A stretch of DNA of 32,749 bases from Deltaproteobacteria bacterium (GTDB lineage: Bacteria > Desulfobacterota > Deferrimicrobia > Deferrimicrobiales > Deferrimicrobiaceae): assembly GCA_016218975.1 (NCBI GenBank), contig JACRCO010000019.1, positions 1 to 32,749 of the forward strand. The letters are read 5' to 3'. Positions 14,890 through 26,911 of this stretch are shown in pieces. Both the position numbers and the translations under genes were made by a program. The notes under the pieces are model-generated. The model searched no databases. It worked only from the letters and a program-made list of their open reading frames with translations, and was not told where the DNA came from. Within the stretch, counting starts at the first letter, position 1. Every line of letters begins with the position of its first letter.

Positions 14890-16119
14890 GTGGCCGTCAC
14901 CTACGAAGAAGCGCTTGCATCCGTGCTGCCGATCATACGCACGCAGGATGTCCACCGCGTCTCCCTTGCGAACGTCGCCGGAGAAATACTTGCGGAAGAC
15001 GTCCTCGCGGACCGGAACATTCCACCCTTTCCCCGGGCGGCAATGGACGGATACGCGGTGATCTGGACGGGCCGGGAAACCGGGACGACCTACAGGGTAG
15101 TCGGAACCGTCAACCCGGGGAGCGAGTGGCAGGGCGATGCGGCGGCATCCGACTGCGTCGGCATTATGACCGGAGCGAGTGTCCCTCCGCCCTTCGACAC
15201 GGTCATCCAGGTGGAGCTTTCCGAGGCGGCTCCGGGAGGCTGTGTCCGTTTTACCGGGTCCGTAAAACGCGGGGAGCACATCGCAAAAGAGGGGGAGGAC
15301 GTCCGAAAAGGCGCCCTGCTAATTCCTTCGGGGACGCTCGTGTCGCCGCATCACGTCGCAATCCTGTCATCGGCGGGCATGTGGGAGGTCCCTGCCTACA
15401 AGCGGCCATCCGTGGCGGTTATCGCCACGGGCAGCGAGCTGCTCGAACCCTGGGAAAGCGCGCGTGGAGCCATGATTCGCAATACCAATTCCCACTTCCT
15501 CCTCTCCGCGCTGAAGGAACTCGGTTTCCATGACGTCCGGTACCTGGGTATCGTCCCGGATGACAGGGACCGCATCGTCGCAAAGATACGCGAGGGACTC
15601 GACTGCGATTTCCTCCTGCTTTCAGGAGGCGTCTCGGTAGGAGAGGTGGACATCGTTCCGGATTGCCTGAAGGAATGCGGCGTCCGGAAGATCCTTCACA
15701 AGGTTGCCGTCAAACCGGGCAAGCCCATCTTCGCCGGAGAATCTGCCGGCGGAGGGATCGTGATCGGTCTGCCCGGAAACCCGGTCGCGGTGATGGTCCA
15801 TTTCCACATGTTCATCCGGCCGCTGCTTCTGAAAGCGTCCGGGGCGGCGGAATATCTTCCGAAACCGATCCACCTGCCGCTTTCCGCAGATGCCTTCAAC
15901 AAAAGCGGGGGTAAGAAATTCACGATAGCGAGGCTTGAATCGAGGGACGGCAAAACGCATGTGGTGGAAATACCCTCGCACGGGTCCGGAGATTACGTCT
16001 CGGCAGGCCGCGCCGACGGGGTGTTCGAGATCCCCCTCGGGACCGTGCGGCTTCCCGCCGGCCATATCGTGCGTTTCTATCCCATCTGGGGAAATTTTCT
16101 GTCGGACGGGAATCAATGA
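14890..16119 (+). CDS. moeA: Molybdopterin molybdenumtransferase MoeA
   Basis: MoeA inserts molybdate into adenylylated molybdopterin, completing molybdenum cofactor in the cytoplasm. The 409 residues show the MoeA pattern: AMDGYAV near residue 50, GIMTGASVPPPFDTVIQVE, IATGSELLEPWESARGAMIRNTNS, LLSGGVSVGEVDIV, KPGKPIFAG and GLPGNPVAVMV, followed by a C-terminal beta-barrel. The GTG start at 14890 is preceded by AGGGAG (14875-14880). It overlaps mobB by 4 bp, and together they would supply Mo-bisMGD to the ArrA-type enzyme encoded downstream on the other strand. Confidence 0.94.
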   Translation: MAVTYEEALASVLPIIRTQDVHRVSLANVAGEILAEDVLADRNIPPFPRAAMDGYAVIWTGRETGTTYRVVGTVNPGSEWQGDAAASDCVGIMTGASVPPPFDTVIQVELSEAAPGGCVRFTGSVKRGEHIAKEGEDVRKGALLIPSGTLVSPHHVAILSSAGMWEVPAYKRPSVAVIATGSELLEPWESARGAMIRNTNSHFLLSALKELGFHDVRYLGIVPDDRDRIVAKIREGLDCDFLLLSGGVSVGEVDIVPDCLKECGVRKILHKVAVKPGKPIFAGESAGGGIVIGLPGNPVAVMVHFHMFIRPLLLKASGAAEYLPKPIHLPLSADAFNKSGGKKFTIARLESRDGKTHVVEIPSHGSGDYVSAGRADGVFEIPLGTVRLPAGHIVRFYPIWGNFLSDGNQ

Positions 16120-16631
16120 CTCCCAAGGCGATTGCCTTCATCGCCCGGTCAGGAACGGGCAAGACGACGCTGATCGAAAAAATATTGCCGGAGCTGGCGG
16201 CGCGCGGTTACCGGGTCGGAGCGATCAAGCACGATGCCCACCGTTTCGACATCGACCGTCCCGGAAAGGACAGCCACCGGCTCACCGCCGCCGGCGCGCT
16301 GACGATGGTCATCTCTTCCGCGGAGAAGCTGGCCCTTGTGAAGAAACACGGCGGGTCGCCTTCCGCGGAAGATCTTCTCCGGGATTATTTCTCCGACATG
16401 GACATCGTGATCGTCGAAGGGTTCCGCTCGAGCGGCCTCCCGAAGATCGAACTTCACCGGAAGGGGAAGAACGATCCCCTCATATGCAGGGGGGAAAACC
16501 ATGATCCTTCCCTGATCGCCGCCGCCAGCGACGAACCGCTGGACCTGGACGTGCCTGTCCTGGACCTGAACGACGCGCGAGGCATCGCCGATTTCATCGA
16601 GGCAAACCTTCTACGGGCGTGCCCGGAATAG
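16116..16631 (+). CDS. mobB: Molybdopterin-guanine dinucleotide biosynthesis adaptor MobB
   Basis: MobB is a GTP-binding partner of MobA, which makes the guanine dinucleotide form of the cofactor used by the DMSO-reductase family. The 171-residue protein has a P-loop ARSGTGKTTL near the N terminus, GAIKHDAHRFDIDRPGKDSHR, and VIVEGFRSSGLPKIELHR typical of MobB. The ATG overlaps the moeA stop (ATGA). No mobA is seen in the window. The gene converges with the transporter gene, 24 bp away, with no clear terminator. Confidence 0.93.
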   Translation: MTPKAIAFIARSGTGKTTLIEKILPELAARGYRVGAIKHDAHRFDIDRPGKDSHRLTAAGALTMVISSAEKLALVKKHGGSPSAEDLLRDYFSDMDIVIVEGFRSSGLPKIELHRKGKNDPLICRGENHDPSLIAAASDEPLDLDVPVLDLNDARGIADFIEANLLRACPE

Positions 16632-16655
16632 AAAAGACCGGTGCGGATTACGGAT

Positions 16656-17867
16656 CTACGAGGATTTTTCCCAGGCGGTCTTGCGGCAGACGTCTTTCCG
16701 GAAAAGCTTCCCGCCGATCTCGTTCAGGGCGATCCCCACCATGAAGGCAATGGCAAGGTTGCCCGTGACAAGCGTTATTAACCCTATGCTTGCGGTGACC
16801 GCCAGTTCGCGGGAGTCCTCCAGCACATCCGCGATCAGCAGCGCGTGTTCGAACCCGACATAGATCAGCAGGACCCCGAGGATCGACAAGGGCAGAAGGC
16901 CGAAGAGATCCGGTATCGATCTTCCGAACAGCAGGGCAAGCGCGATGAACAGCCCGCCGATGAAGAGATTGGCCCCTCCGCCCCTCGCCCCGAAACGGTA
17001 ATGGGCCGTCAGGCCTCCCGACCCGTGGCACACCGGCATCCCGCCGATCAACCCCGCGAGAAGATTTGCGCCCCCCAGGGATGCCGCGAGACTGCGGATC
17101 GTCACGCGCCGCGCATCTTCACCGAAATACCGGCGCGATGTCTCAGCCGTGGCGGCCACAGAGTTGGCGAAAGTGAGCGGTATCTGCGGGAGGAGGAGAA
17201 CGACGAGAACCGTGTAGATATCAGCGCCGAGGGGAATGCTCCATTCCGGACGGATCCAGCCAAGGGACAGGGAAGACGCCCCGCTGAAAGGCCTCTCCAG
17301 CAACCCGAGGAGCAATCCGAAGACCGTGACCACAAGGGCGGCGGGATACCGGCGGCTTTTCCGGGAAAGGAGGATGATGCCCGCGCAGACGACGGCGACT
17401 GCAACACCGTAAAGAACCGGCGAGCCCGCCATGCCGGCGATGGCATGGCCGCCGCCTCCGAAAACCGCCTTCCATCCGCTCTTGACCAGGAGAATTCCCA
17501 ACCCGAGCTGGATACCACGCACGACGGGGCGGGTGAATATCCTTCCGAAAATCCTCTTCAGGTCGAACAGCGACAGGAGAAGGAAGAGGACCCCCATCGA
17601 GAAAGCCGCCGCGGATATTTCCTCCGGGCCGACGGCCATGGCGATTGCGATGGCGGACGTCGCCTTCAGCGGCTGGACAGGCATCGGCAGGCCGTAATAG
17701 AGGCCCGCCGCTATATACGCGAAACCCGCCGACAAAAAAAGCGACGTCGCGTTCACTCCATTGACGACGATCAGGCCGATGGCCAGGGGAAGAAAGGTCG
17801 CGAGGTCTCCAAGGGACCCGGAAATCTCCATCAGGTCAAGTTTGAACCGGCCCCCTGTTCTCCGCAC
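16656..17867 (-). CDS. MOT1-type molybdate (or sulfate) transporter
   Basis: The 403-residue protein has about ten hydrophobic helices and the two MOT1 signatures: SGSLGDLATFLPLAIGL with PMPVQPLKATSAIA in the first half, and GGMPVCHGSGGLTAHYRFGAR in the second. MOT1 proteins are SulP-related high-affinity molybdate transporters. Location downstream of arrA-arrB-arrD and beside moeA-mobB supports molybdate uptake for the molybdoenzyme. Sulfate or another oxyanion cannot be excluded from sequence. The GTG at 17867 follows a GGGGG stretch and lies 2 bases after the small upstream ORF. Confidence 0.85.
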   Translation of the reverse strand: MRRTGGRFKLDLMEISGSLGDLATFLPLAIGLIVVNGVNATSLFLSAGFAYIAAGLYYGLPMPVQPLKATSAIAIAMAVGPEEISAAAFSMGVLFLLLSLFDLKRIFGRIFTRPVVRGIQLGLGILLVKSGWKAVFGGGGHAIAGMAGSPVLYGVAVAVVCAGIILLSRKSRRYPAALVVTVFGLLLGLLERPFSGASSLSLGWIRPEWSIPLGADIYTVLVVLLLPQIPLTFANSVAATAETSRRYFGEDARRVTIRSLAASLGGANLLAGLIGGMPVCHGSGGLTAHYRFGARGGGANLFIGGLFIALALLFGRSIPDLFGLLPLSILGVLLIYVGFEHALLIADVLEDSRELAVTASIGLITLVTGNLAIAFMVGIALNEIGGKLFRKDVCRKTAWEKSS

Positions 17868-17869
17868 CG

Positions 17870-17986
17870 TCAGCCCCCAACCGTCGACATGACGGCGGAC
17901 CCGTCACTCGCGACAAGGATCTTTTCGCAACGGAGGTCGATGTTCATTCTTCCGAAGGTATCGGGAAGTCCCACGCCCGCCCTCAC
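17870..17986 (-). CDS. Candidate 38-aa small protein between arrD and the MOT1 gene
   Basis: A 38-codon frame starts at a GTG overlapping the arrD stop by four bases (GTGA) and ends 2 bases before the transporter's GTG. It therefore exactly tiles a gap that would otherwise be empty. GGAGG precedes the GTG but is only one base away, so expression would depend on translational coupling; an internal ATG at 17947 gives 25 residues. The segment CEKILVASDGSAVM resembles the first strand of universal stress proteins, but the rest of that fold is absent. It could be a genuine micro-protein, a gene remnant, or chance. Confidence 0.35.
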   Translation of the reverse strand: MRAGVGLPDTFGRMNIDLRCEKILVASDGSAVMSTVGG

Positions 17987-18645
17987 GCCTCCGGGCCGAG
18001 CTTTTCGGGGAGCGTCCCCGGAACGGGGGTATTCATGATGAACGTCGAAAGTCCATCCGCAAGCAGCCTGTAGAACTCATGATCGGAACCGGTCCTGATG
18101 CTTTCGCAGAACGGCTCGACCCAGGGGCGCAGATAATTTCCCTGGAACTTCCGCTGCATTTCCAGGTAACCGTAAGCGCCGTTCCTGTCCCCGTGCCGGA
18201 TCGCCCTCGTCTCTTTCCCGACGAGGTAATACATGAATTCCAGCTCCGCGGCAATGTGGTCGGGAGCCTCTTCGAAATCGGCAATCAGGGACAGGCCGGC
18301 CCGACGATAAAACCTTAGAACCTCGATCGTCGAGTCGCCCATCAGTCTCCTGCCCGAATCCAGGTATACCGACCCGTACGGAGGCGCCTGCAATTCGAAG
18401 GGCCCCACGAACAACTTCGCATGGGCCGCGGCGAGTTCGACATCCTCTGTTCGCGATAGCGCACCGGCCATCCCTTCCGCATGCGAAGCCGCTTCCGGGC
18501 AGACGGATTCAAGAAGCCTGCGAAGGTTACCCGGCACATCCTCCTCCAGCAACGCTTTCCTGTCGGGAGGGTAAAAGCACGCGGCAAGAAGCCTGAAGCA
18601 ATCCCCCCTTTTCACCTCCGCGGCGACGAAACCGTCACTGGACAC
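17983..18645 (-). CDS. arrD: TorD/DmsD-family chaperone, probable ArrD
   Basis: TorD-family proteins bind the Tat signal peptide and apoprotein of molybdoenzymes until cofactor is inserted. The 220-residue all-helical protein shows CFRLLAACFYPP near the N terminus, the region YGSVYLDSGRRLMGDST, and EAPDHIAAELEFMYYLVGKE, corresponding to the family E(x)PDH(x)xxELEFM motif. It follows arrA and arrB on the same strand, so ArrA is the likely client. The start is uncertain: GTG at 18645 has no close ribosome site. A well-placed ATG at 18655 gives only six codons, and GTG before KRGDCFRLL is another option. Confidence 0.85.
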   Translation of the reverse strand: MSSDGFVAAEVKRGDCFRLLAACFYPPDRKALLEEDVPGNLRRLLESVCPEAASHAEGMAGALSRTEDVELAAAHAKLFVGPFELQAPPYGSVYLDSGRRLMGDSTIEVLRFYRRAGLSLIADFEEAPDHIAAELEFMYYLVGKETRAIRHGDRNGAYGYLEMQRKFQGNYLRPWVEPFCESIRTGSDHEFYRLLADGLSTFIMNTPVPGTLPEKLGPEA

Positions 18646-18711: not shown

Positions 18712-19467
18712 CTATAGAGATACCTTGAAGCTCCGGATGTAATAAACATTCGGACCGGTGCCTTCCTCGGGTTTCAGCACCTGGGCCTTGTACGTCTTCA
18801 GGAGCTTCGCCGGTTCGCCGGCCGGATCCTTGATATCGCCGAAGATACGCGCCCCGGAAGGACAGGAAACCACGCAGTAGGGCAATTCTCCCTTTTTGAC
18901 GCGATGGTCGCAGAAGATGCATTTTTCGATGACTCCGGCGCGGCGGATATCGTCGTAATCGGGGTGGCCGTACCTGTTACGGTGGGGTGGGACCGAGCCC
19001 GCTTGTGCGGCTGTCGCCGCGCCGGATGCCGTTCCGCCCGGGATCATCTCCGAGGCGTCGCGGAAATTCGGGTGGGTTTCCTTCTTGAACTCGTTGAAGC
19101 TCAAGACGCTCCAGTCGCCTGCGCCGATTGCCTCCTTGCTGTAGGGGCAAGCCCGCTGGCACGCCCGGTCGCCTTTGCACCTCTCGTGGTTGATCATGGT
19201 GATCCCGTCCGGCGTCTTGAATATGGCCGGCGGGGTCACGGGACACGCGGCGACGCAGGGGGCGTCCGTGCAGTGGTTGCACATCACTGGACGGGTGATA
19301 TGGGCGACGTTCGGGAACGAGCCGGACTCTTCATACAGGAAGCCCGCCCAGTTGAACGACTGGCCGTTCCCCCTGTTCTGCGTGTTGTTCTCGGTCTTGC
19401 AGGATATCGCGCAAGCCCCGCAGCCGACGCACTTTTGAAGGTCTATAACCATTCCGTACTGTTTCAT
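18712..19467 (-). CDS. arrB: Respiratory arsenate reductase iron-sulfur subunit ArrB
   Basis: ArrB passes electrons to the catalytic subunit through four [4Fe-4S] clusters. The 251-residue DmsB/PsrB-type protein begins with CVGCGACAISC (Cys13, 16, 19, 23), continues with CNHCTDAPCVAAC and CKGDRACQRAC, and has a later CIFCDHRVKKGELPYCVVSC block. MVIDLQKCVGCGAC...CKTENNT is very like known ArrB as I recall it. A Gly/Ala-rich insert near residues 145-165 makes it slightly longer than the usual ~234. It has no own Tat signal, so it probably travels with ArrA. It lies 14 bp after arrA, with GGAGGGA before the ATG. Confidence 0.9.
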   Translation of the reverse strand: MKQYGMVIDLQKCVGCGACAISCKTENNTQNRGNGQSFNWAGFLYEESGSFPNVAHITRPVMCNHCTDAPCVAACPVTPPAIFKTPDGITMINHERCKGDRACQRACPYSKEAIGAGDWSVLSFNEFKKETHPNFRDASEMIPGGTASGAATAAQAGSVPPHRNRYGHPDYDDIRRAGVIEKCIFCDHRVKKGELPYCVVSCPSGARIFGDIKDPAGEPAKLLKTYKAQVLKPEEGTGPNVYYIRSFKVSL

Positions 19468-19481
19468 TTATCGTCCCTCCC

Positions 19482-22046
19482 TCAGGCCTTCTCTATCTTG
19501 ACGCCGGTGAAGCCGCCGTTGCGGGCGGTCGAGCCGCTGAGACGGTCGTAGTCGTCCGGGAGGATCTCGTTGTTGTTTCCGCCCCTCGGCAGGAACTTCG
19601 AATAATCCAGCGCCGCCACGCGGCCGTAGGCCCAGTGCCCCTGTCCGTAGCACTTGGCCACGGTTCCGGGCCGCACCCCCTGCCACAGCCTGGCCGTGGC
19701 GAGGATCGAGCCGGTTACGGATGTGAGACGGATCCTGTCGCCGTCCCGGATATCCAGCCTGGATGCGTCCGCGGGATTGATCTTTGCGACGTCGTCCCAG
19801 CTCCTGTCGCCGACGTCCACCGCCTTGAACTCGTGGTACCAGGCGATGTTCTGGCTGCGCCCCTCACGGTTCAGGCGCGACTTGTAATCGATGAAGGTGA
19901 AGGGGAACTCCTTCTCGTTCCCCCATCGCTTCGGCGACTCGTAGTGCGGGACGAAGGCCAACTCGCCGCGGGCCTCGTAGCCGCTGGCCTGAAGTACTTC
20001 GTCGATCGTGACGTTGTGCTTCTTCGCGTGCTCCCCGAAGGCCTTCTTCATCGTTTCGCTGTAGAACTCGAACTTCTTCGTTTCGGTCTTGAACTTGCCC
20101 TCGAACTTCCCGGTCGCGGGGTCAACCTTTCCCCAGTTCTTCCTGTAGGGGTAGGTCTCGGTGTTGTATATCCCCCGCTTGCGGAACTCCGCCCAGCCCG
20201 CGACCTGGTCCCCTTTCATCTTCTCCTTCCCGTTCCACACTTTCTGGCTGGAAATCCTTGCGGCGATTTCCGCGAACTCGGCGGCGTTCGCCGGCTTCTT
20301 CCCGGTTTCCGGATCGGCGAAGGAGGCATAGTAATCGTGCAGGTTGGAAAAGCCTCTGGCCTTGAGCTTTTCAGCCAAAAGCCACATCACCTCTGTCTCT
20401 TCGGCCTTGACCTGCCACAGTGTCTTTCCGGCGGGCTGCTGGATCGAGAGGTGGCCGTGCAGGTTCGCCATGCTGGCGATGATCGAAAATTTCTCCGCGG
20501 GCGCGAAGGTCGCCGGGAGGACGATATCGGCGAATTGAGTCATCTCCGACGCGTTGGTCACCATGTGCACGAAGAAGGGAATCCTTTCCAGGGCCTTCTC
20601 CCAGCGCTGGGCGCCGGTGCAGGAGAAGGCGAAGTTGCTCCAGGAGCTGATGAAGACCTTGACCGCGTCCGGATCTTTCAACAACCCGTTGGCCACGTTG
20701 TTTGTGACCACCCCGCTGCCCGGCTTCGCGCTCATCATGGCCGGCATGTCCTTCGCTCCTCGGCCGTCCAACTTCTTCCCCTTGCCGGCTTTTTTCGCAA
20801 GCTCGTCGACGTATTTATCGAGAGAGGGGAATTTTTCCGTCGGAGCGCTCGAGCCCTGCATGACACCACCCTCGGTCTCGATCGAGCCGAGTATGCCGTT
20901 CAGGGCGTAGACCGCCATGGCGGCATAGGTGCCGCGGGGAGTCATCGCCACCCCCGGACCCATCCAGACGGCCGTGGCGGACCCGGCCTTGCCCATAGCC
21001 CGGGCCACGCGGAGGATCTGGTCCTCGGGGATCAAGGTCTTATTCGCGGCCCATGCGGGGGTCTTGTCCTTCAGCTCCAGGTTCCACCACTTCACGACGC
21101 CGTGTGTCTGCTTCTCCGTGAATGACGCCTCGTCGACGGTGGCGCCGGCTTTGAAGAGGTTCTTGCCGTCCTTGAAATCGCCGACGAATTCCTTGCTCCA
21201 CATGCCTTCAGTCATGATGGCGTGCGCGAGGGCTGCGGCGAGCGCGCCGTCCTCCCCCGGCTTTATCGGCAGCCATTCCGTCGCCTTGGCGGCCGAGGCC
21301 GAAAGGCGGGGATCGACGGCGAACACGACGCCCCGGTCAAGTATCCGGCCGAACTTGTCTATGGCGTTCGGCACCTGGCGGTTGGAGCTTAAGGGGTCGC
21401 AACCCCAGACCACAAGGCATTTGGTCCTGGCAAGATCGTAATCGCGGTATCCGAAATACCCCTGGGTATATCCGGGCCCCATCTTCTCGGCCTCGGCGCA
21501 AATTGCGCTGTGGGAGAAGTAGTTGGGGGTGCCGAAGATCTTCGGCAGGGTTCCGTAAAGCAGGTCTGTGGAAGTGGGCGAGTACCGGCCTCTCATGTAC
21601 ATGAGCTTCTCGGGCTCGTTAGCCTTGCGCAGCGACATCATCCTGTCGGCGATGGTGTCCAGCGCCTCGTCCCAGGTGATCGGCACGAACTTCGGGTCGA
21701 CGCCGCGCCCTTTATTCGCATTGGTCCTTTTCATGGGCACTTTGACCCGGTCGGGATCGTACACCTGCTGAACGATCATGTGGCCGCGCGGACAGACATG
21801 TCCGCCGTTTGCCTTTGAGAACCGGTTGCCCCGAACCTTGACTATCCGCCCCTCCTGGACGAATAACTCGGCGGGACACCAGGCGGTGCACCCCTGGCAC
21901 GTGGTGGGGATCCACGCTCCCGGGCTCTCCAAGGGCGATTTGGAGACATGGTCGGCGGCAAACGCATTCAGAGAATACATTCCCACCGCCGCCATGGCCC
22001 CTGTCGTCGCCGAAACTTTAAGGAAATCCCTGCGGCTGATCTTCAT
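19482..22046 (-). CDS. arrA: Respiratory arsenate reductase catalytic subunit ArrA (molybdopterin enzyme)
   Basis: ArrA is the periplasmic Mo-bisMGD enzyme reducing arsenate to arsenite as terminal electron acceptor. The 854-residue protein has a Tat signal (RRDFLK at 5-10, cleavage near AFA-AD at 30/31) and a [4Fe-4S] site CQGCTAWC...C (Cys50, 53, 57, 85). The probable molybdenum ligand is Cys183 in HSAICAEAEKMGPG. RGRY at 152-155 is the motif reported for ArrA, where ArxA has a GRGWG-type motif. The length matches Shewanella ArrA, and the C-terminal CYGQGHWAYGR and PRGGNNNEILP segments fit the family. The start has a near-perfect AGGAGGTGA. Psr/Phs polysulfide or thiosulfate reductases are the main alternative, but resemblance and context favour ArrA. 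Confidence 0.88.
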   Translation of the reverse strand: MKISRRDFLKVSATTGAMAAVGMYSLNAFAADHVSKSPLESPGAWIPTTCQGCTAWCPAELFVQEGRIVKVRGNRFSKANGGHVCPRGHMIVQQVYDPDRVKVPMKRTNANKGRGVDPKFVPITWDEALDTIADRMMSLRKANEPEKLMYMRGRYSPTSTDLLYGTLPKIFGTPNYFSHSAICAEAEKMGPGYTQGYFGYRDYDLARTKCLVVWGCDPLSSNRQVPNAIDKFGRILDRGVVFAVDPRLSASAAKATEWLPIKPGEDGALAAALAHAIMTEGMWSKEFVGDFKDGKNLFKAGATVDEASFTEKQTHGVVKWWNLELKDKTPAWAANKTLIPEDQILRVARAMGKAGSATAVWMGPGVAMTPRGTYAAMAVYALNGILGSIETEGGVMQGSSAPTEKFPSLDKYVDELAKKAGKGKKLDGRGAKDMPAMMSAKPGSGVVTNNVANGLLKDPDAVKVFISSWSNFAFSCTGAQRWEKALERIPFFVHMVTNASEMTQFADIVLPATFAPAEKFSIIASMANLHGHLSIQQPAGKTLWQVKAEETEVMWLLAEKLKARGFSNLHDYYASFADPETGKKPANAAEFAEIAARISSQKVWNGKEKMKGDQVAGWAEFRKRGIYNTETYPYRKNWGKVDPATGKFEGKFKTETKKFEFYSETMKKAFGEHAKKHNVTIDEVLQASGYEARGELAFVPHYESPKRWGNEKEFPFTFIDYKSRLNREGRSQNIAWYHEFKAVDVGDRSWDDVAKINPADASRLDIRDGDRIRLTSVTGSILATARLWQGVRPGTVAKCYGQGHWAYGRVAALDYSKFLPRGGNNNEILPDDYDRLSGSTARNGGFTGVKIEKA

Positions 22047-22121
22047 CCTTCACCTCCTCGAGTAAGCGTCACGAGTGCCTGTGCTCAGAACCGGGATTCG
22101 CCTATAAACCATTTTATTGCA

Positions 22122-22168
22122 TATCTTAAAAGATAAATGGAAAATACAATACTTAATCCCTGTATTTT
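22122..22168. repeat. AT-rich palindromes in the arrA leader
   Basis: TATCTT-AA-AAGATA (22122-22135) and AAAATACA...TGTATTTT (22141-22148 with 22161-22168) are two consecutive perfect inverted repeats between the candidate arrA promoter and the gene. They could be protein-binding sites or leader stem-loops. Confidence 0.5.
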
Positions 22169-22170
22169 CT

Positions 22171-22189
22171 CTCAATTCCCATGCCGCAC
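22171..22189 (-). promoter_or_regulatory. Candidate sigma-54 promoter for arrA
   Basis: On the minus strand GCGGCATGGGAATTGAG has GG and GA separated by ten bases, close to TGGCACG-N4-TTGC but with GA instead of the invariant GC at -12. It lies about 125 bp upstream of arrA, and the next gene upstream encodes a GAFTGA-type sigma-54 activator. The imperfect -12 keeps this tentative. The rest of the 313-bp gap 22047-22359 is unusually AT-rich and holds the palindromes listed separately. Confidence 0.35.
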
Positions 22190-22317
22190 GTAACTTGTTG
22201 GATTCAAAGAAAATACCTTTGGCAAAACGTAACCCGGAAGAAACATCGCAGAAGAGGTATGACGGCTAAGAAGTTGATTTTATAAATTATTTCCCGCGTT
22301 CCATAGGGTCGACCTAT

Positions 22318-22335
22318 TGTTACTTATTGGTAACA
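22318..22335. promoter_or_regulatory. Probable enhancer-binding site upstream of arrA
   Basis: TGTTACTTATTGGTAACA is a perfect inverted repeat (TGTTAC-N6-GTAACA). The half-site GTTAC recurs as GTTACGT on the minus strand at 22188-22194 and 22227-22233. The palindrome lies about 155 bp upstream of the candidate -12 element, a normal distance for an NtrC-type activator site. Confidence 0.55.
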
Positions 22336-22359
22336 TATTTAATATGAAGCCCGTGGCCT

Positions 22360-23694
22360 TCATTCGATCCCGAACGCATTTATTTTTTCCCAGAGCGTCT
22401 TCCTGCTGATGCCCAGGATTTCGGCAGCTTTCGATTTCCCACCCCCGGTAGTTCGCAGCACGCGCAGAATATGGTTCTTCTCCGCTTCAGCGGCGACATC
22501 GGAAAGAAGAAGGCTCCTCGCCCGCTGTCCCTTCGCTATCGCCGGGGGGAGTTCCTCCCTGCCGATCACGCCCGATGTCGCGAGTGTGACGCACCGCTCA
22601 ACGGTGTTCTCGAGCTCCCTGACGTTCCCGGGGAAATCGTGAATGATAATCGCATCCGCCGCTTCCTTCGAAAGCCTTACGTTCTTCGACTGGATTTTCC
22701 TGTATTTGTCCATGAAGTGTTCGATCAGGGCCGGGATGTCCTCCTTCCGCTCCCTCAAGGGTGGAAGCACGATCGGAATGACGTTCAGCCGGTAATACAG
22801 GTCTTCCCTGAACCGCCCTGCCCCGACCTCCTTTTCGAGGTCCCTGTTCGTCGCCGCGATCACTCGCACGTCGACGGTCAGCGTTTCCGTCCCGCCGATC
22901 CTCTCGAACTGCCGCTCCTGCATGACACGCAGTATCTTCGCCTGGGTGGACTGGGGCAGGTCCCCCACCTCGTCGAGGAATATGGTTCCTCCGTCGGCAA
23001 GCTCGAACCGGCCGGGCTTTCTTTTTATCGCTCCGGTGAACGCCCCTTTTTCATGGCCGAAGAGCTCGCTCTCTATCAGCCCCTCGGGAAGCGTCGAACA
23101 GTTGACCTTGATCAGCGGCTTGCTCCTCCTGGCGCTGCGATAGTGAATTGTCGTGGCGGCCATCTCCTTGCCCGTGCCGCTTTCGCCGAGGAGGAGAACG
23201 GTAGACGAGGATGCGGCCACCTTGTCGATGAGGAAGAAGATCTTCTTCATCCCTGCGCTTTCGCCCACGATGTTCGGAGCGCGGGAATACGAGTTCAGGT
23301 CTTTCCTGAGCCGGATGTTCTCGTCCTTCAGGCGCTTGAGATCGAGCGCCCTTTCGACGAGCAACAGGAACTCGTCGAGCGAGAAGGGCTTGGTAAGGTA
23401 ATCGAAGGCCCCCAGCTTCATCGCTTCCACCGCGTCCCTTATGGTGCCGTAGGCGGTCATCACGATGACCTGGATGTCTCCCCGCCCCGCGATTTCCCTT
23501 ACGATGGCGAACCCGTCGATGTCCGGGAGCCTCACGTCGGTTATCACGACGTCGCACGATGTGTTTTGTATGGCATTGAGGCCCGCGGTGCCTGTAGCGA
23601 AAGACATGACCTCGTACCCGGCCCCTTTCAGCGCGTCTTCCAGGGTCACGCGCATGATCTTGTCGTCCTCTATTAGTATGACGCCCCCGTTCAT
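22360..23694 (-). CDS. Sigma-54-dependent NtrC-family response regulator
   Basis: The 444-residue protein has a receiver domain (residues 1-120; phospho-acceptor Asp53, Thr80, Lys102). An AAA+ domain follows with Walker A GESGTGKE (170-177), the sigma-54 contact loop GAFTGA (217-222), Walker B GGTIFLDEVGD and the RFREDLYYRLNV segment. A C-terminal Fis-type helix-turn-helix (KSKAAEILGISRKTLWEKINAFGIE region) ends the protein. It would activate a sigma-54 promoter after phosphorylation by the upstream kinase. The frame is open into the kinase gene, but ATG 23694 overlaps the kinase stop as ATGA. arrA is the next gene in the same direction, making it the obvious target. Confidence 0.93.
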   Translation of the reverse strand: MNGGVILIEDDKIMRVTLEDALKGAGYEVMSFATGTAGLNAIQNTSCDVVITDVRLPDIDGFAIVREIAGRGDIQVIVMTAYGTIRDAVEAMKLGAFDYLTKPFSLDEFLLLVERALDLKRLKDENIRLRKDLNSYSRAPNIVGESAGMKKIFFLIDKVAASSSTVLLLGESGTGKEMAATTIHYRSARRSKPLIKVNCSTLPEGLIESELFGHEKGAFTGAIKRKPGRFELADGGTIFLDEVGDLPQSTQAKILRVMQERQFERIGGTETLTVDVRVIAATNRDLEKEVGAGRFREDLYYRLNVIPIVLPPLRERKEDIPALIEHFMDKYRKIQSKNVRLSKEAADAIIIHDFPGNVRELENTVERCVTLATSGVIGREELPPAIAKGQRARSLLLSDVAAEAEKNHILRVLRTTGGGKSKAAEILGISRKTLWEKINAFGIE

Positions 23695-25163
23695 GTTGCC
23701 TCCCCCGCCGGGAATCGCATGGTGAACCGGCTCCCCTTTCCCGTTTCGCTTTCGACGGCGATCTCCCCGCCGTAGCTGCGGACGACTTCGTATGCGAGCC
23801 AGAGGCCGAGGCCGGTCCCCTCCCCTGCGGGCTTGGTGGAAAAGAAGGGGTCGAAGACCCTCCCGAGGTTTTCCGGCGGGATTCCGGCGCCGGTGTCGAT
23901 GATATCGATGGCGACGAGCGAGTCGTGCACGGCGGCCCTGACCGTCAGCACCCCGTCGGCGCTCATGGCGTGGACCGCGTTTATCAACAGGTTGAGAAGA
24001 AGCTGCTGGAGATCGTGCGCATCGAACGTGAAGCGCAGCTCCCCGGGAACCTCGTTCCTGAATGCGATCCGGCCGTCGCTTATCTTGTACCTCAGGAAGG
24101 CGTATGCCTCTTCGACGGCGTTCCGCACATTCACCTCGGCGAGGGCGCGCTCCTTCTTGCGGGACATCCACAGCAGCTTGCCGACCGTCGCCTCGATCCT
24201 GTCCATCCCCTCCCTGACGAGATCCAGGTATTTCTCCCTGAGGCCCGTGTCCGCGCCGTTTTTTTTCAGCATCTGGAGGCAATTGAAGATTCCGCCCAGC
24301 GGGTTGTTGATCTCGTGGGCGACGCCCGCCGCAAGGACTCCGATGGACGCGAGCTTCTCCGATTGCACCAGCTTTTCATGCGTCTTTTTCAGTTCCTCGT
24401 TCGCCTGCCGGATCCTTTCGATCATGCCGTTGAACCGCTCGCCGAGAACGGCGATCTCGTCGCTCCCCTTTACGTCCACCTTCAGGTCGAGGAAATCTCC
24501 GCGCGCCCTTTCCATGGTGTCGGCAAGCCTGGTTATGGGGCTAATGAACCGCCTGCTCAAAAGAACGACGATGACGAAACCGCCCAGCAGAAGAAACACG
24601 GTCAGCGCCGCGATCCTCTTCACCATGGCGAGGATTTCGCGCTCGACCTTCTCGAGGGAGATCCCGAATTTCAGGGTCCCCCACCGTTTCGTCCCGATCG
24701 AGAGGGGAACTCCGAAGTCCAGCGCATTGTGGCCGTCCCTGGAAAATCGCTGAACGGTGGTCAGCTCCGCGGCGAGTATCCTCCGTGTCATATCGTCCGA
24801 ATATACCTTCCCGTATTCTGTAATGTCGTTGTGAGAGATAACCTTGCCTTCCTCGTCAAGGATCGCCACGTAGATAAGGTCCGTCTCCTTCCGGTGGAAG
24901 ACCTCCGCCGTGTAATTGTCGATTAGCCCGCCCTCTTCGACCAGCCCCAGCTTCTCGTATATGAGGTCGTTGATGATGGGTATCGCGAGCGTCTCGCCGA
25001 GCAACCGCCCCTGTTTCTCCGCTTCCGCATACATGATGCTCTTTTCCCTCTCTACGGCCAGGTAGCCCAGCGCGGTCATCATCGCTATGATCGCGCACGT
25101 CGTTACGAGAATGAATTGAAACTGAAGCCCTTTCCCCGATAACAGAGGGACCGGGCGAGTCAT
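23691..25163 (-). CDS. Membrane sensor histidine kinase (HAMP, HisKA, HATPase)
   Basis: The 490-residue kinase has TM1 (about 16-36), a ~145-residue periplasmic sensor region, and TM2 (about 184-203). A HAMP domain, a short coiled coil and HisKA GVAHEINNPLGG (His283) follow. The ATPase lobe has N-box NLLINAVHAM, G1 DTGAGIP and G2 GTGLGLWLAYE. It is the cognate kinase of the downstream NtrC-type regulator, joined by an ATGA overlap. The ATG at 25163 is chosen because it overlaps the stop of the upstream periplasmic protein as ATGA; an earlier ATG at 25196 lacks a ribosome site. By analogy with AioS/AioX it may receive its signal from that periplasmic protein. Confidence 0.92.
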   Translation of the reverse strand: MTRPVPLLSGKGLQFQFILVTTCAIIAMMTALGYLAVEREKSIMYAEAEKQGRLLGETLAIPIINDLIYEKLGLVEEGGLIDNYTAEVFHRKETDLIYVAILDEEGKVISHNDITEYGKVYSDDMTRRILAAELTTVQRFSRDGHNALDFGVPLSIGTKRWGTLKFGISLEKVEREILAMVKRIAALTVFLLLGGFVIVVLLSRRFISPITRLADTMERARGDFLDLKVDVKGSDEIAVLGERFNGMIERIRQANEELKKTHEKLVQSEKLASIGVLAAGVAHEINNPLGGIFNCLQMLKKNGADTGLREKYLDLVREGMDRIEATVGKLLWMSRKKERALAEVNVRNAVEEAYAFLRYKISDGRIAFRNEVPGELRFTFDAHDLQQLLLNLLINAVHAMSADGVLTVRAAVHDSLVAIDIIDTGAGIPPENLGRVFDPFFSTKPAGEGTGLGLWLAYEVVRSYGGEIAVESETGKGSRFTMRFPAGEAT

Positions 25164-26911
25164 AGCCTGATATTCGGATGGCATCCCATGCCGCATGCCC
25201 GCGGAACCGCGTTGATCTGCAACCGTATATTTTCGTAATCCCTTTCCGACGCCTCGGTAAAACCGTTCTTCAGGTCTTCATCGAGGCGCTTCAATACCTT
25301 TCTCCCCTCGTCCTCGGAAGGGTTCAGGCCGAGAAGGGCCTTCCTTATCGTTTCAACGACCGTGGGAGATACGTTCTTTCCGGCGACAAGCGGCCCCGTC
25401 GGTATGGCCTCGGATACGGCGATGGTCTCTATGCCAAGCCCAAGATATTTCTTCGCCACCGATTCCCGCACGGCCCCCGCATCGAACCGTCCCTTGAGAA
25501 CGGCCTTTACCACGGAATCGTGGAAATCGAAATTAGCATATCCCTTCAGGTCCCCCAGATGGATGCCACTTTCGGCCAGGAGATAGCGGGGAACAAGGTT
25601 CCCGGATGTCGATTTTGACGATGCGAAGGCGACGCTCCTCCCCTTCAGGTCGGAAGGGCTGTTCATGGGAGCGCCTTTCCGCTTGATGATCACGCTCCTG
25701 TTCTGTGCACTACCGTCTACCCCACGAGGTTTCAGGATGCACCTGACGTCGCTTCTCGCCCGGGCCTCGAGGTAGGTCAACGGACCCAGCAAGGCGACGT
25801 CCGTTTCTCCGTTCACGAGAGCGCCCACGGTCTCCGCATAGTTTCTTTTCAGCACGATCTCGTAGGAATACGGCGTCTTCCTCGACAGGTAATCGATGAG
25901 GGGCTGGTACTTTTCGTAAAGGATCCTGGGGTTGTCCCTCGGGATGATCCCGAACCGCACCGTCCTGCGGTCGCCGGTTTTTTTCGGCGCCGACACGATG
26001 CCCGCGATGGCCCGGTCCATCTCCCGAATCCCGTCATAGTCCTTGTCGGAAATTTCGGCGAATCCGTCGATCATCATGGCGTCGAGGATCGCTTTGCCCT
26101 TCGGATCCTTCTCCATCGCGAGAAATGCGTCCCTTACCTTTTTCTTGAGGATGGGATCGACATCCGTTGCGACAACCACCGGAGGGATTCCGAAAGGAGG
26201 GGAACGTTTGATGATTTTCGTCTGCCTGACGTAAGGCGAACCGGTCCTCCGCATGTGCTCGTATACGATGCTGTCTACCGCCGCTCCTTCCGCGATCCTT
26301 TTCGCCACCATCTCGACGGACTTGTTATGGCTGTAGCTGTAGTGAATTCTTCCGAAAAACCTTTCCGGGGTGAACCCCATCGTCTTCAGAAGATAGGTGG
26401 GGTAGATCTTGCCGGTATTGGATTTCGGGTCGGTGAAGGCGAATGCCTTACCCTTTAGTTCCGGGAATGCCCTTATCTGGCTGTCGATGTGGACGATGAC
26501 GTACGAGTGGTACCGCAGGCTTCCGTTCACCCTCGGCGCAACCAGGAGTTCGACTCCGAATTTCTCCCGGTCCTTGACATAAGGAGCGGAACAGATGAAC
26601 GCTATCTTGACCTCGCCCCTTTCGAGGAGCCTGTCCATCTCGTCATACGTCCTCCTGTGGACCATCTGAACGGGCTGTCCGATCCTGTTCCCGATGTATT
26701 CGATGATTTCCTGGTAATACCTGACAGTGTCGACCGGCGTGATCATGGAGGATACACCGATCCGGATCGGCGCCTGCCGGGCGGCGTATACGGAAGGAGC
26801 GACAAGAGATGAGACAGCGAGGAAAAAGAGGAGGAAAACGATTGTTTCGAAAAAGGCGGAAGCGTTCCGGATGATGAACCGGCGGGGAAACGCACGGGCG
26901 ACAAGACCCAT
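25160..26911 (-). CDS. Tandem PhnD-like periplasmic oxyanion-binding protein, probable sensor component
   Basis: The 583-residue exported protein has a signal peptide (hydrophobic 20-40, cut after VYA at 43) and two PhnD-type substrate-binding domains, about 48-305 and 316-565. Both repeat the fold landmarks: KIAFICSAPYV and DVALLGPLTYL, then DPKSNTGKIYPTYLL and SSKSTSGNLVPRYLL. Single-domain PhnD relatives such as AioX act as arsenite sensors for a kinase. Here the first domain has Cys107 in the ICSAPY loop, the second has Cys391, and the tail has CGMGC (573-577). There is no ABC permease or ATPase next to it, but a kinase overlaps it, so sensing rather than transport is inferred. The ligand could be As(V), As(III) or phosphate. 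Confidence 0.85.
   Translation of the reverse strand: MGLVARAFPRRFIIRNASAFFETIVFLLFFLAVSSLVAPSVYAARQAPIRIGVSSMITPVDTVRYYQEIIEYIGNRIGQPVQMVHRRTYDEMDRLLERGEVKIAFICSAPYVKDREKFGVELLVAPRVNGSLRYHSYVIVHIDSQIRAFPELKGKAFAFTDPKSNTGKIYPTYLLKTMGFTPERFFGRIHYSYSHNKSVEMVAKRIAEGAAVDSIVYEHMRRTGSPYVRQTKIIKRSPPFGIPPVVVATDVDPILKKKVRDAFLAMEKDPKGKAILDAMMIDGFAEISDKDYDGIREMDRAIAGIVSAPKKTGDRRTVRFGIIPRDNPRILYEKYQPLIDYLSRKTPYSYEIVLKRNYAETVGALVNGETDVALLGPLTYLEARARSDVRCILKPRGVDGSAQNRSVIIKRKGAPMNSPSDLKGRSVAFASSKSTSGNLVPRYLLAESGIHLGDLKGYANFDFHDSVVKAVLKGRFDAGAVRESVAKKYLGLGIETIAVSEAIPTGPLVAGKNVSPTVVETIRKALLGLNPSEDEGRKVLKRLDEDLKNGFTEASERDYENIRLQINAVPRACGMGCHPNIRL

Follow-up and report, generated by a model that had tools for sequence, protein, structure and literature searches.

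The 313-bp gap between arrR and arrA is, with a probability that we put at roughly 0.84, the enhancer and promoter region of a sigma-54-driven arsenate-respiration operon under the control of ArrXSR. Its boxes and sigma-54 promoter recur beside the same sensor-regulator genes across several phyla, which makes it very probable that the switch which turns on arsenite oxidation also controls the arsenate respiration genes here; by analogy, the architecture published for aioXSR and aioBA would here be extended to arr.

The arr locus and the gap upstream of arrA

The window, by which we mean the whole stretch of 32,749 nucleotides that was analysed, is contig C19 of a 2.95-Mb draft genome (G000) in which rpoN is present. 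On its minus strand the genes run in the order arrX, arrS, arrR, the 313-bp gap, arrA, arrB, a TorD-type chaperone gene and then a molybdate transporter gene. The molybdopterin subunit of the respiratory arsenate reductase, ArrA (19482-22046, minus strand), carries a Tat signal and was named on account of ArrA 6cz7, its sole PDB match under 1e-50, and of its 80% identity to ArrA of Geobacter sp. OR-1 (L048); its best NCBIfam family, NF041714, is matched over the full length at 1026 bits, which does not reach the curated equivalog cut-off of 1600. The iron-sulphur subunit ArrB (18712-19467, minus strand) scores 229.6 bits against its best family, NF041715, below the cut-off of 450, and the operon also holds the TorD/DmsD-type chaperone (17983-18645, minus strand; Pfam PF02613). 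Genes for a MoeA-like protein and a MOT1 molybdate transporter (14890-17867) adjoin the arr operon and point to molybdenum cofactor supply.

Upstream of the gap lie, on the same strand, arrR (22360-23691), encoding an NtrC/AtoC-type response regulator, arrS (23691-25196), encoding a membrane sensor kinase with sCache_3, HAMP, HisKA and HATPase domains (Pfam), and arrX (25160-26911), encoding a periplasmic sensor; this X-S-R synteny is kept in relatives. The sequence-only reading had described the neighbouring gene as a sigma-54 activator with a GAFTGA motif, which is confirmed by the Pfam domains (Response_reg, Sigma54_activat and HTH_8) and by the translation of arrR: the receiver, the AAA+ domain with its Walker motifs and GAFTGA, and the Fis-type helix-turn-helix are all intact, as expected of an NtrC-type activator (bEBP). 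The recognition helix, ISRKTLWEK, is common to AioR-type regulators.

The gap itself (22047-22359, minus strand) extends from the end of arrR at 22360 to the arrA ATG at 22046, contains no predicted terminator and is AT-rich, as had been noted (40% GC versus 61% for the window). Towards arrA it presents box 1, box 2, a candidate -24/-12 element and a strong ribosome site 5' of the ATG. The predicted distal ArrR box, or UAS1 (GTTACCAATAAGTAAC, 22319-22334, minus strand), lies within the perfect 18-bp palindrome TGTTACTTATTGGTAACA (22318-22335), of the form TGTTAC-N6-GTAACA, which stood exactly as first described; it occurs once in the window and in none of 100 shuffles, and its exact GTTAC-N6-GTAAC core is present as a single copy in the whole 2.95-Mb genome. 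Read as GTTACTTATTGGTAAC, positions 22319-22334 conform to GTTN10AAC upstream of the target operon.

Alignment with relatives revealed the predicted proximal box, or UAS2 (GTTTCTTCCGGGTTAC, 22229-22244, minus strand), which reads GTTTC-N6-GTTAC in the window owing to a mutation of its right arm from GTAAC to GTTAC, and which is intact as GTTTC-N6-GTAAC in five aligned relatives; in relatives of the clade this second tandem palindrome retains 9 of 10 core bases. The two boxes are spaced 90 bp apart in the window and 89-93 bp apart in the relatives, and the two-box pattern occurs once in the genome, with no occurrence of a reversed control. Two GTTACGT half-sites had been listed as separate elements; both are indeed present on the minus strand (CGTAAC at 22189 and 22228 on the plus strand), and the copy at 22228-22233 proved to be the right arm of box 2. 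The half-site near 22190 was rejected as an element in its own right, aligned relatives keeping only GTT and not GTTACG. The architecture initially proposed is retained in its palindrome and its -24/-12 element and replaced in its count of one box plus two half-sites, there being two boxes, of which the second has a mutated arm. Elsewhere in the genome, boxes with one mismatch were no commoner than a reversed-pattern control, and therefore no further members of a regulon can be claimed.

Conservation of the boxes with the regulator genes

Relatives of ArrA were taken from 20 of 395 same-phylum genomes and from 80 loci retained after 84,980 species had been scanned, and regulators were located by tblastn. 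In an unbiased search that took in every inverted dyad of four bases with a gap of 0-20, the top dyad was GTTA-N8-TAAC / TTAC-N6-GTAA, present in 14 of 29 regions that follow a same-strand regulator (0.05-0.12 expected) and in 11 of 14 regions in which arrA and the regulator genes point away from each other (0.03-0.05 expected). In 28 arrA regions in which no regulator was found and whose upstream sequence extends to 4 kb or more, this dyad was neither enriched nor among the top motifs.

When a box was called at 9 or more of 10 core bases, it was found at 33 of the 38 loci with an AioR-type regulator, a class defined by the pattern R[KTEQ]xLW[EDGK][KR] in the recognition helix, versus 3 of the 37 loci without one (Fisher p ~1e-12); counting only the 700 bp before arrA gave 30/38 versus 3/37. 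This association test was scored against the core first seen in the window, a choice of which the dyad search is free. On the ArrA tree, among 14 phylogenetically independent pairs whose members differ in the regulator, approximately 10.4 differed in the box in the same direction and 0.4 in the opposite one (median sign-test p 0.002). The conservation check that the sequence-only reading had proposed was passed: relatives that share the regulator keep the palindrome in front of arrA. The palindrome is missing where the regulator is missing.

Boxes accompany regulators with a helix of the ISRKxLWEK type (ISRKTLWEK in the window, ISRTTLWEK in NT-26), while other helices occur without boxes. Eight loci, whose NtrC-type regulator lacks such a helix or has it cut off, were first set apart, and seven of these have no box; the eighth, L110, where the contig ends within the regulator, does have boxes and was placed in the AioR-type group for the association. 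Treating every NtrC-type neighbour as ArrR was accordingly rejected, the seven loci without the helix being also without the box. The combination of box and AioR-type ArrR was found in Thermodesulfobacteriota/'Deltaproteobacteria', Nitrospirota and Pseudomonadota, and in betaproteobacterial loci the boxes are still present with arrA divergent from X-S-R.

A few individual loci deserve mention. At L074 a perfect box, GTTACCGAACGGTAAC, lies at -211 from arrA and no regulator was found in the 10 kb upstream; the XSR genes may be elsewhere in that genome. L026 and L064, where arrA has no XSR, have in common a site, GTTGCANAGTTGTAAC, at -71 from arrA, which perhaps serves another regulator. At L029 (1583-1595), the arrA reading frame of genome G064 is broken into two near residue 604, through a frameshift or an assembly error.

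In the regulator tree the window ArrR falls in a clade of seven rows with support of 100/100, and the deep order is left open, this clade being sister either to AioR or to the Geobacter-type ArrR; a single clade with AioR/ArxR is not rejected (p-AU 0.21). The same genome carries a paralogous kinase-regulator pair (L142, contig C53 near 70 kb) with the helix GIGRKALWERL, after which come two GTTTC-N6-GAAAC palindromes, GTTTCCATATGGAAAC and GTTTCCCTATGGAAAC, 30 bp apart and, 3' of these, a -24/-12 element, CGGCATGCCGATTGCT, whose -24 starts CGGCAT like that of the window, and then a multihaem cytochrome gene. To judge from its sequence, this appears to be another switch built to the same plan, in which the boxes are altered.

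The -24/-12 element and the probable route to arrA expression

The candidate sigma-54 element CGGCATGGGAATTGAG (22171-22186, minus strand; predicted start near 22160) is weak. It agrees with the consensus at 7 of 11 positions, its -12 reads TTGA and not TTGC, and it is absent among the sites of the gap with at most two mismatches to the -24/-12 consensus; a score of this level is expected approximately 0.4 times by chance anywhere in such a gap and has a probability of approximately 0.0007 at a fixed position. The description of this element as near-consensus was consequently abandoned, while the distance of about 155 bp that had been given from the palindrome was accurate (approximately 154 bp from palindrome centre to -12).

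The element is credible because of its position relative to the boxes and not because of its own sequence. Measured from the start of the proximal box, it begins at 58 bp, and a -24/-12 element begins at 57-59 bp in all eight clade promoters, which come from seven loci (the window, L024, L029, L045, L051 with two, L069 and L097). These elements are TGGCATGGGAATTGAT, TGGCAAGAAACTTGAA, TGGCAAGGAAATTGAA, TGGCAAAAAAGTTGCA, TGGCACCGAAATTGCT, TGGCATGAAAGTTGAT (twice) and the window's CGGCATGGGAATTGAG, some being consensus-perfect, as is TGGCACCGAAATTGCT. Since its -12 reads TTGA and one arm of its proximal box is lost, the window copy of the promoter may be weak, and by sequence its -24/-12 is best described as a weakened version of the clade element. 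In L024 and in L069 (L027 being the same contig as the latter) arrR and arrA are separated by a gene for a porin-like protein or a multihaem cytochrome, and it is this gene that the boxes and promoter precede; L051 carries two sets, one following arrR and one preceding arrA, while L097 has its set only before arrA. From these placements we conclude that the module travels with whichever gene comes first in the target operon.

It might be argued that ArrR binds the boxes while the arrA promoter is not of the sigma-54 type, the -24/-12 look-alike being incidental. Besides the weakness of the window element, the Geobacter-type arr loci (L050, L053, L058, L059, L061, L065, L068 and L073) lend themselves to this interpretation, as they have a box shortly before the next start codon and, in these eight, no recognisable -24/-12 after the box. 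We nevertheless regard it as unlikely in the face of the GAFTGA motif kept in ArrR and of the 57-59 bp spacing in all eight clade promoters, in places with a perfect element.

Alternatively, arrA could be expressed mainly by read-through from a promoter upstream of arrXSR, with the gap a mere spacer, as would be compatible with genes that all face in the same direction, a short gap and the lack of a predicted terminator. The strong conservation of the boxes and of their spacing within the gap, together with the boxes of betaproteobacterial loci in which arrA is divergent from X-S-R, renders this account very unlikely.

A sigma-70 promoter at TTGAGA-18-TATTGT (22175-22146), with the palindrome serving another factor, merits hardly any credence: the single 9/12 match in its favour is at chance level (0.8 such matches expected), its second hexamer is not conserved in aligned relatives and the palindrome tracks the ArrR genes, and this promoter was rejected. 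A functionless chance palindrome, for which nothing was found, was discarded on the strength of the shuffles, its single occurrence in the genome and its conservation across phyla.

Control of arsenate respiration by sigma-54 through the palindrome, as the sequence-only reading had suggested, is supported by a box that tracks the AioR-type ArrR across phyla and by the fixed-distance -24/-12 in 8/8 clade promoters. That ArrR binds the boxes and is phosphorylated, that arsenate is the signal and where transcription starts are inferences from what is established for NtrC-type activators, on which the following mechanism is based. Periplasmic ArrX would bind arsenate and signal through the kinase ArrS, which would phosphorylate the NtrC-type ATPase ArrR; ArrR dimers would occupy the two GTTAC-N6-GTAAC-type boxes 90 bp apart, and the assembled ATPase would contact sigma-54 RNA polymerase at the -24/-12 element (22186-22171) and open the promoter, so that arrAB-torD would be transcribed from approximately 22160. 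Read-through from arrXSR may add basal arrA expression, since no terminator is predicted in the gap.

Relation to known arsenic switches and the two-domain sensor

The arrangement resembles that of aioXSR and aioBA in Agrobacterium, NT-26 and Herminiimonas, where a periplasmic oxyanion sensor, a kinase and a GAFTGA regulator are likewise combined with two GTTN10AAC palindromes and a -24/-12; in the window the second palindrome has a mutated right arm. GTTN10AAC is the published consensus of AioR sites, one of which was footprinted at GTTCGGATTTCCGAAC (PMC5335332), and box 1 is in the exact frame of both. A study of aioBA operons (PMC3834237) reported two palindromes and a -24/-12 in 12 of 12 that have aioXSR and in none that lack it, and the absence of the boxes where XSR is absent is common to the aio and arr systems; rpoN dependence and a start determined by 5'-RACE were demonstrated for Herminiimonas aioBA (PMC2848651). 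In our analysis the same boxes and a -24/-12 were found in the control regions of NT-26 aioBA (GTTCGAGAATGCGAAC and TGGCACAACGATTGCA), Azoarcus KH32C (GTTACGTCGGCGTAAC and TGGCGCGAATGTTGCG) and Hydrogenophaga (GTTACTTTTTTGTAAC and TGGCACGCGCGTTGCG), and that of Sulfuricella has two imperfect boxes. The systems differ in their target, which is the arsenate reductase arrAB in the window and arsenite oxidase in aio, in the box arms (GTTAC in the window, GTTCG in aio), in the weak -12 of the window and in its sensor, which is a fused two-domain protein. The window regulator is likened to AioR by its helix and boxes and may belong to the AioR clade.

A sensor of the ArrX type beside arrAB is also a feature of ArrXSR in Chrysiogenes arsenatis, the solved ArrX being the best PDB match of the N-terminal half of the window sensor. 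According to excerpts of the Chrysiogenes report (PMC5908839), that ArrX binds arsenate with a Kd of approximately 1 μM and phosphate with one of approximately 150 μM, its ArrR, in contrast to that of the window, is CitB/NarL-like without an AAA+ domain, and an RpoN promoter could not be found in front of arrAB. In three of the loci collected here (L041, L062 and L067) ArrX likewise stands beside a NarL/CitB-type and not an AtoC-type regulator. The same excerpts report an AtoC-family ArrR in the ArrXSR of epsilonproteobacterial arsenate respirers, which are likened to the window by this description alone, the excerpts describing no box or promoter there (PMC5908839). A literature search confined to papers outside subscription found no described sigma-54 promoter of arrA.

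The less expected part of the system is ArrX itself, in which two PhnD/AioX-type binding domains (two Pfam Phosphonate-bd stretches) are fused and a CX3CH tail is added. The N-terminal half has ArrX 6x6b as its best PDB match (E 6.8e-48; AioX, E 5e-39) and the C-terminal half PtxB; the protein is PhnD-like, encoded beside S and R and closest to ArrX/AioX, as befits a member of this family. The fusion is shared by L024, L029, L051 and L097, and in L052 the halves are separate genes. The tail, of the form C-G-x-x-C-H and reading CGMGCH in the window (25163-25200), lies at the extreme C-terminus in 19 of 19 ArrX proteins with this type of C-terminal half and is missing in AioX as well as in ArrX encoded next to NarL-type regulators, as compared by eye. 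It is possible that the tail constitutes a haem or an As(III)-thiol site. As a tentative and rather doubtful suggestion, ArrX might be a two-input sensor, with an arsenate-binding domain and a PhnD/PtxB-type domain bearing the tail, in which case the arr promoter would respond to arsenate and to a second signal, such as redox state or the product arsenite.

Uncultured arsenate reducers mobilise arsenic into groundwater, and to our knowledge the control of their arr genes is poorly known. If the box and the sigma-54 promoter are shared, then arsenite oxidation (aio) and arsenate reduction (arr) would use the same regulatory code, the box and promoter together would offer a searchable mark for regulated arr operons, and the gap described here would represent a directly testable promoter for arsenate biosensing.
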